Part shown: positions 41,319 to 43,682 of the stretch, piece after piece | Layout: each line of letters starts with the position of its first letter | How positions within the stretch are numbered: the first letter of the stretch is position 1 | NCBI RefSeq assembly: GCF_036013645.1 | Contig: NZ_CP107869.1 | Coordinates: forward strand, 4,464,001 to 4,528,000 | DNA: 64,000 bases | DNA from: Streptomyces sp. NBC_00490 | GTDB lineage: Bacteria > Actinomycetota > Actinomycetes > Streptomycetales > Streptomycetaceae | Direction of reading: 5' to 3' | Program-made: the position numbers and the translations under genes | The notes under the pieces: model-generated | Database searches by the model: none | What the model was told of the DNA's origin: nothing | Seen by the model: only the letters and a program-made list of their open reading frames with translations

Positions 41319-41582
41319 TCAGACGGCCGCCTTCTTCAGGCGGCGGCGCTCCCGCTCGGACAGGCCGCCCCAGATGCCGAACCGCTCGTCGTTCGCGAGG
41401 GCGTACTCGAGGCACTCGGAGCGGACTTCACAGGACAGGCAGACCTTCTTGGCCTCGCGGGTGGAGCCACCCTTCTCGGGGAAGAAGGACTCGGGGTCGG
41501 TCTGGGCGCACAGCGCGCGCTCCTGCCAGCCGAGTTCCTCGTCCGCGTCGTCGACCAGCAGTTGCTGCACCAGCTCGGTCAT
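41319..41582 (-). CDS. whiB: WhiB transcriptional regulator (iron-sulphur)
   Basis: 87 residues. The four cluster-binding cysteines are Cys25, Cys48, Cys51 and Cys57 (C-X2-C-X5-C at the last three), followed by the G[I]WGG turn at 69-73 and the basic C-terminal tail SERERRRLKKAAV. The sequence and position match the founding WhiB of Streptomyces, needed with WhiA for sporulation septation. Regulation is expected to be developmental; a promoter is annotated upstream. Confidence 0.96.
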   Translation of the reverse strand: MTELVQQLLVDDADEELGWQERALCAQTDPESFFPEKGGSTREAKKVCLSCEVRSECLEYALANDERFGIWGGLSERERRRLKKAAV

Positions 41583-41655
41583 GTGCGCCCCTCGTCTGTC
41601 TTTCGCGTCCCCGTGATCTAGCCGTTACCGATGTCGGCTGAACGACACGAGTGAA

Positions 41656-41685
41656 ATTACAAGTGTGCTGCTCCGGGCGAGTCAA
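41656..41685 (-). promoter_or_regulatory. Candidate whiB promoter
   Basis: On the minus strand TTGACT (41685-41680), an 18-bp spacer and TGTAAT (41661-41656) form a good vegetative-type promoter 74 bp upstream of the whiB start. A GACAC motif, the core recognised by WhiA, lies just downstream at about 41644-41648, but a pentamer is weak evidence. Confidence 0.5.
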
Positions 41686-41896
41686 GCCGAGATCTGCTAT
41701 TGGGCCCCTTATTCACTCTGCGGAACCAAGGCCTAGCAGAAAGTGTTCAAATCGCCATAAACCTTGACAAGCAGATAGGGCCCGGGGGAACTTCCGACCC
41801 GCGCAGGACCTGTACGGAGAAGGACGCCCAGAACTTCGATCCCGTTCCGCGCGCCCGGTTGTGCGCCATGTGTCCCGGTAGACCTCTGAACAAACC

Positions 41897-41929
41897 TTTC
41901 ACCTCACAGATGGACCGGATGAGGTGAAA
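41897..41929. repeat. Perfect 10-bp inverted repeat, probable operator
   Basis: TTTCACCTCA and TGAGGTGAAA are separated by 13 bp. The right arm ends 24 bp upstream of the -35 of the leader ORF promoter. It could bind a dimeric regulator. A terminator is unlikely because no gene reads into it. Confidence 0.6.
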
Positions 41930-41953
41930 CATGTCCCACATGTCGGTGTCGAG

Positions 41954-41983
41954 TTGACAGTGCCGGGTGTGAGCCGCTGTCCT
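41954..41983 (+). promoter_or_regulatory. Candidate promoter of the cysteine dioxygenase transcript
   Basis: TTGACA (41954-41959), an 18-bp spacer and TGTCCT (41978-41983). The -35 is consensus, the -10 is weak. Initiation about 7 bp downstream would begin at or next to the ATG at 41991, giving a leaderless first ORF. Confidence 0.5.
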
Positions 41984-41990
41984 TGTGGGC

Positions 41991-42083
41991 ATGCTCGCGA
42001 ACTCGGCACTCACCACGACCCGCACCGCCGGGTCCCACGGTGCTGCCCGCGCGCGCTGTAGCTGTTGCTGTCCCAGCTGTTGA
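41991..42083 (+). CDS. Cysteine-rich leader peptide upstream of cysteine dioxygenase
   Basis: A 30-codon ORF beginning MLANSALTTTR and ending CSCCCPSC before TGA. Five of its last eight codons are Cys (TGT or TGC), an extreme bias in a high-GC genome where Cys is rare. There is no Shine-Dalgarno sequence; the promoter placement suggests leaderless translation. A terminator-like hairpin follows 20 nt after the stop, and the next gene degrades cysteine. Polycysteine leaderless ORFs acting as cysteine-responsive attenuators are known in mycobacteria. Being coding is inferred from this context; expression is unproven. Confidence 0.6.
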   Translation: MLANSALTTTRTAGSHGAARARCSCCCPSC

Positions 42084-42103
42084 GCGACACCCGCTCCGGC
42101 TGA

Positions 42104-42128
42104 AGCCGAGTCGCCCTGCGACTCGGCT
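42104..42128 (+). terminator. Attenuator-like hairpin between leader ORF and cysteine dioxygenase
   Basis: AGCCGAGTCG pairs perfectly with CGACTCGGCT around CCCTG (one more C-G pair possible), followed by CTTCTGTTC. It lies 48 nt before the dioxygenase start and 21 nt after the leader stop. An alternative stem AGCTG/CAGCT (42060-42078) lies within the Cys codons. It could be an intrinsic terminator whose formation depends on leader translation. Confidence 0.6.
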
Positions 42129-42175
42129 CTTCTGTTCCCCTCTGACCTTCTTTCACTGAGGAACCAGCGCATCCC

Positions 42176-42688
42176 ATGAACAGCGACAACGACCTCCAGA
42201 TCGCCGGCGACATCCTCGAGGTACCGCACCTGCTCCAGGCCCCGCGCGAGCACCCGGCCACCGTCGCCGAGTTCGTCGGCCTGGCCCGCTCCATCGCCGC
42301 CGACCGCTCCCAGTGGGAGCACCTGGTGCAATACGACGCCACGTCGCGCTGGTACCACCGGCTGCGCACCGGGCCGGGGTACGAGGTGTGGCTGCTTTCC
42401 TGGGTGCCCGGTCAGGGCAGCGGTCTGCACGACCACGGCCGGTCCTCCGGGGTGCTGACCGTCCTGGACGGCGAACTGACCGAGCGGACGGAGCGCGGCA
42501 CGCGCGCGCTGGGGACGGGCTCGCAGCGGGTGTTCGCGCCGGGTTATGTGCACGAGGTCGTCAACGACGCCCTGGAGCCGGCGGTCACCCTGCACGTCTA
42601 CTACCCGGGCCTGACGGAGATGCCGATGTACACCGCGTGCACCGCGGCCCCCGCGACGTACGACGAGGTGGACGTCGTCACCGCCTGA
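42176..42688 (+). CDS. Cysteine dioxygenase (cupin)
   Basis: 170 residues from MNSDNDLQIAGDILEV; GAGGA lies somewhat far (about 13 nt) upstream. The cupin motifs carry the iron ligands: two His in GSGLHDHGRSSGVLTVLDGE and one in PGYVHEVVNDA. The type I cysteine dioxygenase family oxidises cysteine to cysteine sulfinate with O2. The preceding Cys-rich leader ORF supports cysteine as substrate and signal. A related 3-mercaptopropionate dioxygenase activity cannot be excluded. Confidence 0.9.
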   Translation: MNSDNDLQIAGDILEVPHLLQAPREHPATVAEFVGLARSIAADRSQWEHLVQYDATSRWYHRLRTGPGYEVWLLSWVPGQGSGLHDHGRSSGVLTVLDGELTERTERGTRALGTGSQRVFAPGYVHEVVNDALEPAVTLHVYYPGLTEMPMYTACTAAPATYDEVDVVTA

Positions 42689-42722: not shown

Positions 42723-43682
42723 ATGCGCATTGTGGTTCTGGCAGGCGGCATCGGTGGTGCCCGGTTCCTGCGCGGTCTGAAGCAGGCCGCGCCGGACGCG
42801 GACATCACGGTCATCGGCAACACCGGGGACGACATCCACCTCTTCGGGCTGAAGGTCTGCCCGGACCTCGACACGGTGATGTACACGCTCGGCGGCGGCA
42901 TCAACGAGGAGCAGGGCTGGGGCCGGGCCGACGAGACCTTCCATCTCAAGGAGGAGCTCGCGGCGTACGGCGTGGGGCCGGAGTGGTTCGGACTGGGCGA
43001 CCGGGACTTCGCCACGCACATCGTGCGGACGCAGATGATCGGCGCCGGGTTTCCGCTCAGCGCGGTCACCGAGGCGCTCTGCGACCGCTGGCAGCCGGGC
43101 GTGCGGCTGATCCCGATGTCCGACGACCGGGTGGAGACGCACGTGGCCGTCGAGGTGGACGGCGAGCGCAAGGCGATCCACTTCCAGGAGTACTGGGTGC
43201 GGCTGCGGGCCTCGGTCCCGGCGGAGGCGATCGTGCCGGTGGGCGCGGAGCAGGCCAAGCCCGCGCCGGGCGTCCTGGAGTCCATCGCCGAGGCGGACGT
43301 CATCCTCTTCCCGCCGTCCAACCCCGTCGTCTCGGTCGGCACGATCCTCGCGGTGCCCGGCATCCGCGAGGCGATCGCCGAGGCCGGGGTGCCGGTGGTC
43401 GGTCTCTCCCCCATCGTCGGGGACGCGCCCGTGCGCGGGATGGCCGACAAGGTGCTCGCCGCGGTGGGCGTGGAGTCGACGGCCGCGGCGGTGGCCGAGC
43501 ACTACGGCTCGGGGCTGCTGGACGGCTGGCTCGTCGACACCGTGGACGCGGGCTCGGTGGACCGGATCGAGACGGCGGGCATCCGCTGCCGGGCCGTACC
43601 GCTGATGATGACGGACCTCGACGCGACCGCCGAGATGGCCCGCGAGGCACTCGCGCTGGCAGAGGAAGTACGCGCGTCATGA
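42723..43682 (+). CDS. cofD: 2-phospho-L-lactate transferase (F420 biosynthesis)
   Basis: 319 residues from [19 protein letters not shown]. CofD/FbiA landmarks are [20 protein letters not shown], the [15 protein letters not shown] region, [12 protein letters not shown] and [13 protein letters not shown]. It joins the phosphoenolpyruvate- or lactate-derived moiety to Fo to form dehydro-F420-0 or F420-0. The stop overlaps the start of fbiB (ATGA), so the pair is translationally coupled. Known as fbiA in actinobacteria. Confidence 0.96.

Follow-up and report, generated by a model that had tools for sequence, protein, structure and literature searches.

A conserved poly-cysteine leader ORF as the likely cysteine sensor in front of a cysteine dioxygenase gene in Streptomycetaceae

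Why should a short ORF ending in a run of Cys codons stand in front of a gene whose product degrades cysteine? The question was raised by a stretch of 64,000 nucleotides from the chromosome of Streptomyces sp. NBC_00490 (hereafter the window), in which a first-pass annotation had proposed a cysteine-responsive attenuator upstream of cysteine dioxygenase (CDO), adding that the sign of control may be reversed. The gene order at the locus is whiB, CDO, cofD, and its features are collected in Table 1. The identity given to the downstream gene was borne out, the CDO protein matching PF05995 (CDO_I) with an E-value of 3.4e-20 and 72.7 bits (Pfam cut-off 23) and retrieving cysteine dioxygenases of solved structure in a sequence search. 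Two S. coelicolor proteins, SCO3035 and SCO5772, were reportedly demonstrated as active CDOs by Dominy and co-workers in 2006. Since the whiB of the locus is SCO3034 in S. coelicolor (PMC4255298), the window CDO is, judged by its position, very probably SCO3035.

CDO was present in all 150 Streptomycetaceae genomes, covering 17 genera. Its neighbours are also kept: in a named Streptomyces set, the best 80 of 524 stretches encoding a relative, 79 loci have a WhiB motif upstream of CDO, and a CofD motif follows it in all 80. CDO and cofD/fbiA are probably on one transcript, and F420 synthesis may come under control of the leader, cofD/fbiA starting 34 nt after CDO. Between whiB and the leader lies an inverted repeat that may serve whiB or the leader promoter as an operator and whose GATGAGGTGAA was found at most 420 nt upstream of CDO in 72 of the best 80 of the 524 stretches.

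Table 1. Features of the CDO locus in the window, and the leader of the second CDO gene of the same genome.
Feature	Position	Strand	Description and basis
whiB	41319-41582	minus	ORF list and translation; upstream of CDO
10-bp inverted repeat	41897-41929		TTTCACCTCA...TGAGGTGAAA, between whiB and leader
Promoter	41954..41983	+	-35 TTGACA 41954-41959, 18-nt spacer, -10-like TGTCCT 41978-41983; conservation
Leader ORF	41991..42083	+	30 codons, ATG 41991, peptide MLANSALTTTRTAGSHGAARARCSCCCPSC, stop TGA 42081-42083; conservation
Putative sensor codons	42057..42080	+	Cys 23, 25, 26, 27, 30 (TGT TGT TGC TGT TGT); Cys conservation across loci
Hairpin P1	42074..42102	+	10 bp, 42074-42079 and 42082-42085 with 42093-42102; pairing conservation, covariation
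Hairpin P2, terminator-like	42104..42138	+	stem 42104-42128, tail CTTCTGTTCC; terminator scan, compensatory changes
Pyrimidine-rich stretch and SD	42134..42164	+	GAGGA 42158-42162; sequence, folding
CDO	42176..42688	+	170 aa; PF05995, sequence match to solved cysteine dioxygenases
cofD/fbiA (2-phospho-L-lactate transferase)	42723..43682	+	TIGR01819, PF01933; 34 nt 3' of CDO
Second CDO leader	G000 C1 7323549-7323605 (L082, L302)		GTG-started, VTDTCVRLWRRVHMDLVRYAGCVCRVSC, over the NF042934 cut-off; rhodanese-like ORF after CDO; window genome

The first-pass annotation had staked its reading on conservation of the Cys codons and of the frame in relatives, and both proved conserved. A leader ORF was found upstream of CDO in 80/80 of the named set (the best 80 of 524), mostly of the form MLANxALTSTRxAGSxGAAxARCSCCC..C and with 3 to 7 Cys within the last 12 codons. 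We then considered 89 further Streptomycetaceae CDO loci (29 given as loci and 60 fetched). Of these, 82, from 16 genera, had an ORF that begins with ATG and whose last 14 codons include three or more Cys; looser rules added leaders at L154, which represents a 17th genus, L164, and L187. As for the remaining loci, L156 was cut by a contig end and L141, L159, and L185 were without a leader ORF, L159 having the Cys run and no start codon. The kept set of 163 loci thus comprised the window, the 80 and the 82 (including the weak-looking leaders of L160 and L165), seven of the 89 family loci being dropped under the first rule; the two sets overlap, the 163 loci corresponding to 159 distinct sequences and 145 distinct peptides. 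Beyond the MLAN type, the peptides had little in common except the Cys run, whose length and order varied freely between loci. Four or more of the last 14 codons were Cys in 153 of the 163 loci versus 1 of 1630 dinucleotide shuffles; three or more were Cys in 163/163 by selection and in 21/1630 shuffles. The conservation of the leader ORF is not due to chance.

The promoter, the start, and the run of five Cys among the last eight of 30 codons (CSCCCPSC) were confirmed at the coordinates first proposed, the -10 being weak as described. No site in 41600-42200 passed a sigma-70 promoter scan, which requires the second hexamer to have A in position 2 and T in position 6, and the promoter assignment therefore rests on conservation. 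TTGAC preceded an in-frame start by 35 nt (2 loci), 36 nt (113), or 37 nt (48) in 163/163 kept loci, a distance that had played no part in picking them; in 156 loci, this start was the first Met of the ORF itself, the remaining seven having a different one in frame within 60 nt. By comparison, four other 5-mers were found 35-38 nt before the start in 0, 1, 0, and 3 loci, and TTGAC itself at 20-23, 25-28, and 55-58 nt in 6, 9, and 0 loci; its occurrence at 45-48 nt in 67 loci probably arises from Leu TTG codons inside the ORF being counted as starts. The second hexamer was TGTCCT or TCTCCT in 115/163 loci. This fixed geometry would place the 5' end of the transcript at or near the start codon and suggests that the leader ORF is probably leaderless.

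The window peptide had no match in NCBIfam or Pfam, and Rfam covariance models gave 0 matches up to E 1 in 41850-42250. In 91 MLAN-type loci, we observed 67 synonymous versus 207 non-synonymous changes in the ORF body, compared with 58:140 expected for random single changes, and the three codon positions varied equally; we therefore detected no purifying selection on the amino acids of the body, which by itself gives no coding signal. It follows that what is kept is DNA or RNA, plus the frame and the Cys run. Codon choice in the leaders was also peculiar, with 657 TGT and 189 TGC among the Cys codons of the 163 loci; the corresponding CDO genes had a TGT:TGC ratio of 0:7, and four genes of the window one of 1:12.

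The small alternative stem first noted within the Cys codons does exist, and is actually the 10-bp hairpin P1, whose 5' arm contains the last Ser-Cys codons and the stop codon (CAGCTG-TT-GAGC pairing with GCTCC(A/G)GCTG). In 81 sequences (73 distinct), 92.2% of the P1 cells were paired versus 18-44% when the arms were slid. Fifteen cells were changed on both sides versus 4.8 +/- 1.7 in shuffles (0/500 as high), a count that kinship of the sequences can inflate; 14 of them belonged to a single pair, in which a change of Ser AGC to Gly GGC is matched by T to C in the partner, and double changes concerned two pairs in all, a number that shuffles often reach (133/500). The announced terminator-like hairpin, P2, was likewise recovered as the sole such site in 41600-42200, with 11 pairs and a loop of 3 (shuffles 0.3 +/- 0.6 sites). 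In 39 short-spacer sequences, P2 was 81.3% paired versus 20-40% when slid and had 18 double-changed cells versus 6.4 +/- 2.2, so that covariation was seen in both hairpins. Its median energy was -9.5 kcal/mol in 85 of 94 ML-type loci (nine without a clear E3 or P2 were dropped) and the tail had at least 4 T in 8 in 24 of these 85; P2 was absent or different in some loci. As first stated, there was no clear antiterminator: the competing 2:3 pairing was too weak, with a median of -3.9 kcal/mol in the 85 loci, coming within 3 kcal of P2 in 17. Since compensatory changes affect P1 and P2 while the peptide body is without amino-acid-level selection, the leader seems to be a sensor whose main job is to make ribosomes read the Cys codon run.

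Downstream of the P2 stem, GTTCC (42134-42138) could pair with GGAAC (42160-42164) and hide the SD. Predicted folding left the SD mostly paired in every ribosome state. Over the 163 loci, folding alone indicated no SD switch by ribosome position, the mean opening being 0.23 for free RNA, 0.26 with a ribosome stalled at the first Cys codon, and 0.27 with one at the stop codon; the SD opened by more than 0.2 in three loci at the stop and in one at the stall. In both classes of Streptomyces, RNAalifold predicted pairing between the Cys tract and the initial codons of CDO, and the two regions (42057-42085 and 42178-42192 in the window) are complementary in many Streptomyces, GCUGUUGCUGUUC with GAACAGCGACAGC. 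This duplex is weak in the window, where its rank was 76 among 152 windows; outside Streptomyces it is mostly poor, with exceptions such as L166 and L176. Not being conserved, it was set aside.

Related leaders occur elsewhere in the window genome. The model NF042934 had 12 matches, 10 of them over the cut-off, in front of genes that we read from translations as cysI, a MoaD-CysM operon, the second CDO with a rhodanese, and a thiosulphate sulphurtransferase. The eleven matches other than the second CDO leader (L301 and L303-L312, two under the cut-off) also precede, by translation, FMN monooxygenase/sulphonate-type operons, transport lipoproteins, and a regulator. It is possible that these leaders form a ribosome-read sulphur regulon. 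The cysI leader has one Cys codon and that of the second CDO four; from these codons, a shared Cys signal is not evident for the cysI leader. A leader, MTTTSSRTLATEATMTPGARCMCRMCAF, is also located upstream of metN (metNIQ, L313); its S. lividans counterpart has been called methionine-dependent (PMC8079986). In the tail of the L313 leader, Cys codons equal or outnumber Met codons, and cysteine may be read there too. A search of the window genome for the pattern CCCC, which misses CSCCC, gave 56 matches, and those near a stop that we looked at appeared to be ordinary coding DNA in the wrong frame.

Outside Streptomycetaceae, CDO was found in 54 of 118 genomes of the class Actinomycetes (E 1e-10), and most out-of-family CDO loci examined are without a Cys leader. 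By inspection, five of 22 such loci (L223-L244) had one (L231, L233, L234, L236, and L243); Cys-containing frames at L229 and L235 were further off and treated as noise, and the others had none within the stretch scanned. Similarly, inspection found no Cys leader at 11 of the 13 CDO loci of family f26. In another actinobacterial family, f19, CDO was present in 8/22 genomes, and a leaderless-type Cys-codon leader stood at 8/8 CDO loci of its genus g53: five MRCCC, one MQSCR, and two MQASALVLVMRRHIDLKRTCTAICR. They share a promoter-like stretch and, just after the stop codon, a CTCCGG complementary to the CCGGAG that holds the CDO SD. The long form contains an HxDLxR motif like that of NF042934, and we infer that the short leaders are deletions of it. 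Within this one genus, the CDO leader is thus either 25 codons long (HIDLKR form) or only five (MRCCC or MQSCR), while promoter stretch and anti-SD are similar (L250-L257), which provides a natural series for the study of minimal attenuators.

How, then, might the leader act? The transcript would begin at or beside the ATG, and ribosomes short of charged Cys-tRNA would slow in the five C-terminal Cys codons, of which four are TGT. The leading edge of a ribosome lies about 15 nt past the first P-site base; by this footprint arithmetic, a ribosome waiting at Cys 26, 27, or 30 would cover the 5' arm of P1 in part or wholly, whereas P1 would otherwise form and take in the last Cys codon and the stop codon. 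Together with P2 downstream, P1 would lower the expression of CDO and probably of cofD/fbiA, ribosome occupancy would relieve this effect, and the peptide itself would have no job. Scarcity of charged Cys-tRNA, for example during thiol oxidation, would thus turn CDO on together with the cysteine-synthesis operons that carry related leaders. We consider it highly likely that the translated leader senses Cys. That the ribosome gates P1 is, in our view, reasonably probable; the explanation as a whole, sign included, has a somewhat better than even chance of being right. As for the attenuator first proposed, conservation upholds the poly-Cys, leaderless-type ORF as a likely sensor in front of CDO; transcription may terminate at the hairpin, P2 being variable, however, missing in some loci, and without a predicted antiterminator. 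In a toy kinetic model with assumed rates, if stalls from Cys 26 onwards mask P1, slower Cys decoding raised its masking from 0.06 to 0.61 (with faster initiation, from 0.23 to 0.61); if only a ribosome on the stop codon masks, masking fell to 0, which corresponds to the opposite sign. In this model, the sign would therefore depend on which stalls mask P1.

Published expression data bear on the sign. In wild-type S. coelicolor under H2O2, 28 genes were raised by the cut-off of the study (PMC4991794), and by our own count from its table 1, 18 of them are sulphur genes (SCO6094-6102, SCO4164-4165, SCO2910-2912, metI, metN, SCO5772, and SCO3035, metQ being below the cut-off). Both CDO candidates are among them, SCO5772 with 8.0x and SCO3035 with 6.54x (PMC4991794), and the operons matching the raised ones carry Cys-codon leader ORFs in the window genome. 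Diamide is also reported to induce cysI, cysA, and cysM with or without NdgR (PMC4340878). A shortage of charged Cys-tRNA would be a simple common cause of the co-induction under H2O2, which favours the ordinary sign, in which this shortage turns CDO on, since SCO3035 rises together with the cysteine-synthesis operons; this is not decisive. Binding of SenR upstream of SCO6102 (PMC4991794) offers another reading of the co-induction, stress-induced cys genes are reported to lead to more cysteine (PMC4340878), and in Streptomyces SCUT-3 grown on feather, cdo1 rose 50.2-fold and cdo2 8.3-fold (PMC7181669), either of which could be the counterpart of the window CDO; all three observations fit the reversed sign as well. 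We accordingly hold the ordinary sign as fairly probable, on the co-induction data and the footprint arithmetic, with these counter-readings; the possibility of reversal raised by the first-pass annotation is made less attractive by the co-rise. At a more tentative level, below an even chance, both CDOs would belong, probably family-wide, to the same ribosome-sensed regulon as cysteine synthesis via leaderless Cys-codon leaders, Cys-tRNA shortage in thiol oxidation turning synthesis and oxidation on together; what S. coelicolor shows as a sulphur response to H2O2 would then, for the most part, be this leader regulon at work, with CDO needed for sulphite or redox supply and not for disposing of surplus cysteine.

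Other explanations differ in the sign or in the level of control. In the reversed case, ribosomes that have passed all Cys codons would reach the stop, open P1, and turn CDO on, whereas at low cysteine they would stall at Cys 23, too far upstream for P1, and leave CDO off. This would suit the catabolic role of CDO, CDO being on while cysteine is short being physiologically odd and a point against the ordinary sign; a stall at Cys 23 does leave P1 free by footprint arithmetic, the stop-only version of the toy model behaves in this way, the anti-SD of the f19 genus starts directly after the leader stop, and the feather data and the stress-raised cysteine point in the same direction. However, three of the five Cys codons (26, 27, and 30) are stall sites that would mask P1 partly or wholly, successive Cys codons prolong this masking at low Cys in the toy model, and in S. 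coelicolor CDO rises with the cysteine-synthesis operons, not against them (PMC4991794), so that we regard reversal as rather unlikely. Purely translational control, in which the waiting ribosome would free the CDO start region (by relieving SD masking or the pairing of the Cys tract with the start codons) and transcription would be unaffected, we also judge unlikely. It is the mechanism reported for the mycobacterial examples, and it would account for the anti-SD at 8/8 f19 loci (longer in L257), for the RNAalifold pairing in both Streptomyces classes, and for the few loci in which a ribosome on the leader opens the SD (e.g., L178, L179, L194, and L197). In Streptomycetaceae, however, the SD barely responded to ribosome position over 163 loci, neither the window nor, for the most part, the other genera gave a good tract-start duplex, and it is mRNA that changes in the published data, although the stability of an mRNA could depend on its translation.

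The leader could also be no sensor at all. The conserved block might be a DNA regulatory region, i.e., a promoter with regulator sites, of which the poly-Cys frame would be a by-product; all codon positions are indeed equally conserved, and SenR (PMC4991794) and NdgR (PMC4340878) have been reported at other cys promoters. We consider this very improbable, since the Cys run and the frame persist in 16 genera despite a different surrounding peptide, the in-frame start keeps its promoter distance in every kept locus, shuffles almost never reach four Cys, and the compensatory changes in P1 and P2 are of the RNA type. Slighter still is the chance that the ORF encodes a functional Cys-rich small protein, metal- or thiol-binding. 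The CxCCC-type run is kept across the family, as such a protein would have it, but the body shows no purifying selection, the run is free in length and order, the bodies differ in other genera, and a 5-codon MRCCC form exists in another family.

If the translated leader does sense Cys, cysteine-responsive leader-ORF control extends from synthesis to degradation across a whole family of antibiotic producers, and the speed of the ribosome is probably a cysteine gauge for Streptomyces and its relatives. The leader regulon would simply explain the presence of 18 sulphur-operon genes among the 28 of one RNA-seq list for oxidative stress; two CDO genes, perhaps along with F420 synthesis, would be governed by a thiol gauge that the ribosome reads. 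With the ordinary sign, the accepted role of bacterial CDO in the removal of surplus cysteine would need rethinking; with the reversed sign, this would be an unusual attenuator, its gene being on when the amino acid is plentiful.

The nearest known systems are the polycysteine leaderless short-ORF attenuators of mycobacteria, which Canestrari and co-workers are said to have described in 2020 in front of synthesis or assimilation genes, the ribosome freeing a hidden ribosome-binding site. The window leader resembles them in being a short, probably leaderless ORF with consecutive Cys codons near the stop, a cysteine-metabolism gene downstream, and proposed control by ribosome speed. In contrast to those attenuators, the gene downstream of the window leader destroys cysteine; moreover, the leader peptide matches no model of that set and folding predicts no SD switch, a structure of SD-hiding form being present in the f19 genus, whereas the window family gave no response in the folding of 163 loci. 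The window leader and six other CDO leaders had no match at E up to 10 to NF042934 (cis_reg_atten) or NF042936 (Ms4527A), while as a control the cysI leader of the window genome passed NF042934 (33 versus 27 bits) and not NF042936 (28.2 versus 45). Window-type CDO leaders differ from both models by longer Cys runs and by lacking the HVDLxR motif, and some distant Streptomycetaceae CDO leaders end in LRRAASALCC, which in our own reading resembles HVDLxRxxSAxC of NF042934.

Cys leader peptides have also been described in Mycobacterium, Propionibacterium acnes, and Bifidobacterium (Seliverstov et al., 2005; PMC1262725). They share with the window leader a Cys codon run near the stop and a cysteine gene downstream; they are without a conserved terminator and sit before cys operons and cbs, not CDO (PMC1262725). 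Both S. coelicolor and S. avermitilis belonged to the genomes of that study, the passages considered mentioning no case of Cys in Streptomyces (PMC1262725). The leader peptides of S. lividans, including metL, which were found by RNA-seq as leaderless short ORFs, offer a likeness in that metL (ARCMCRRMCAF) is Cys-rich; none of the eight leaders listed is called cysteine-dependent, and the word dioxygenase has 0 occurrences in the main text (PMC8079986). Set beside the trp-type attenuator, the window has the terminator-like P2, which covaries in 39 short-spacer loci; a T-rich tail was present in only 24 of 85 loci, P2 is absent in some, and no mutually exclusive antiterminator was found at the medians given above. 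A literature search by title and abstract, covering mostly open-access papers, found no Cys leader before CDO among the papers listed. What is new here is thus probably the cysteine-responsive leader-ORF control of a catabolic gene, such gauges having previously been described, as far as we found, before cysteine-making genes.
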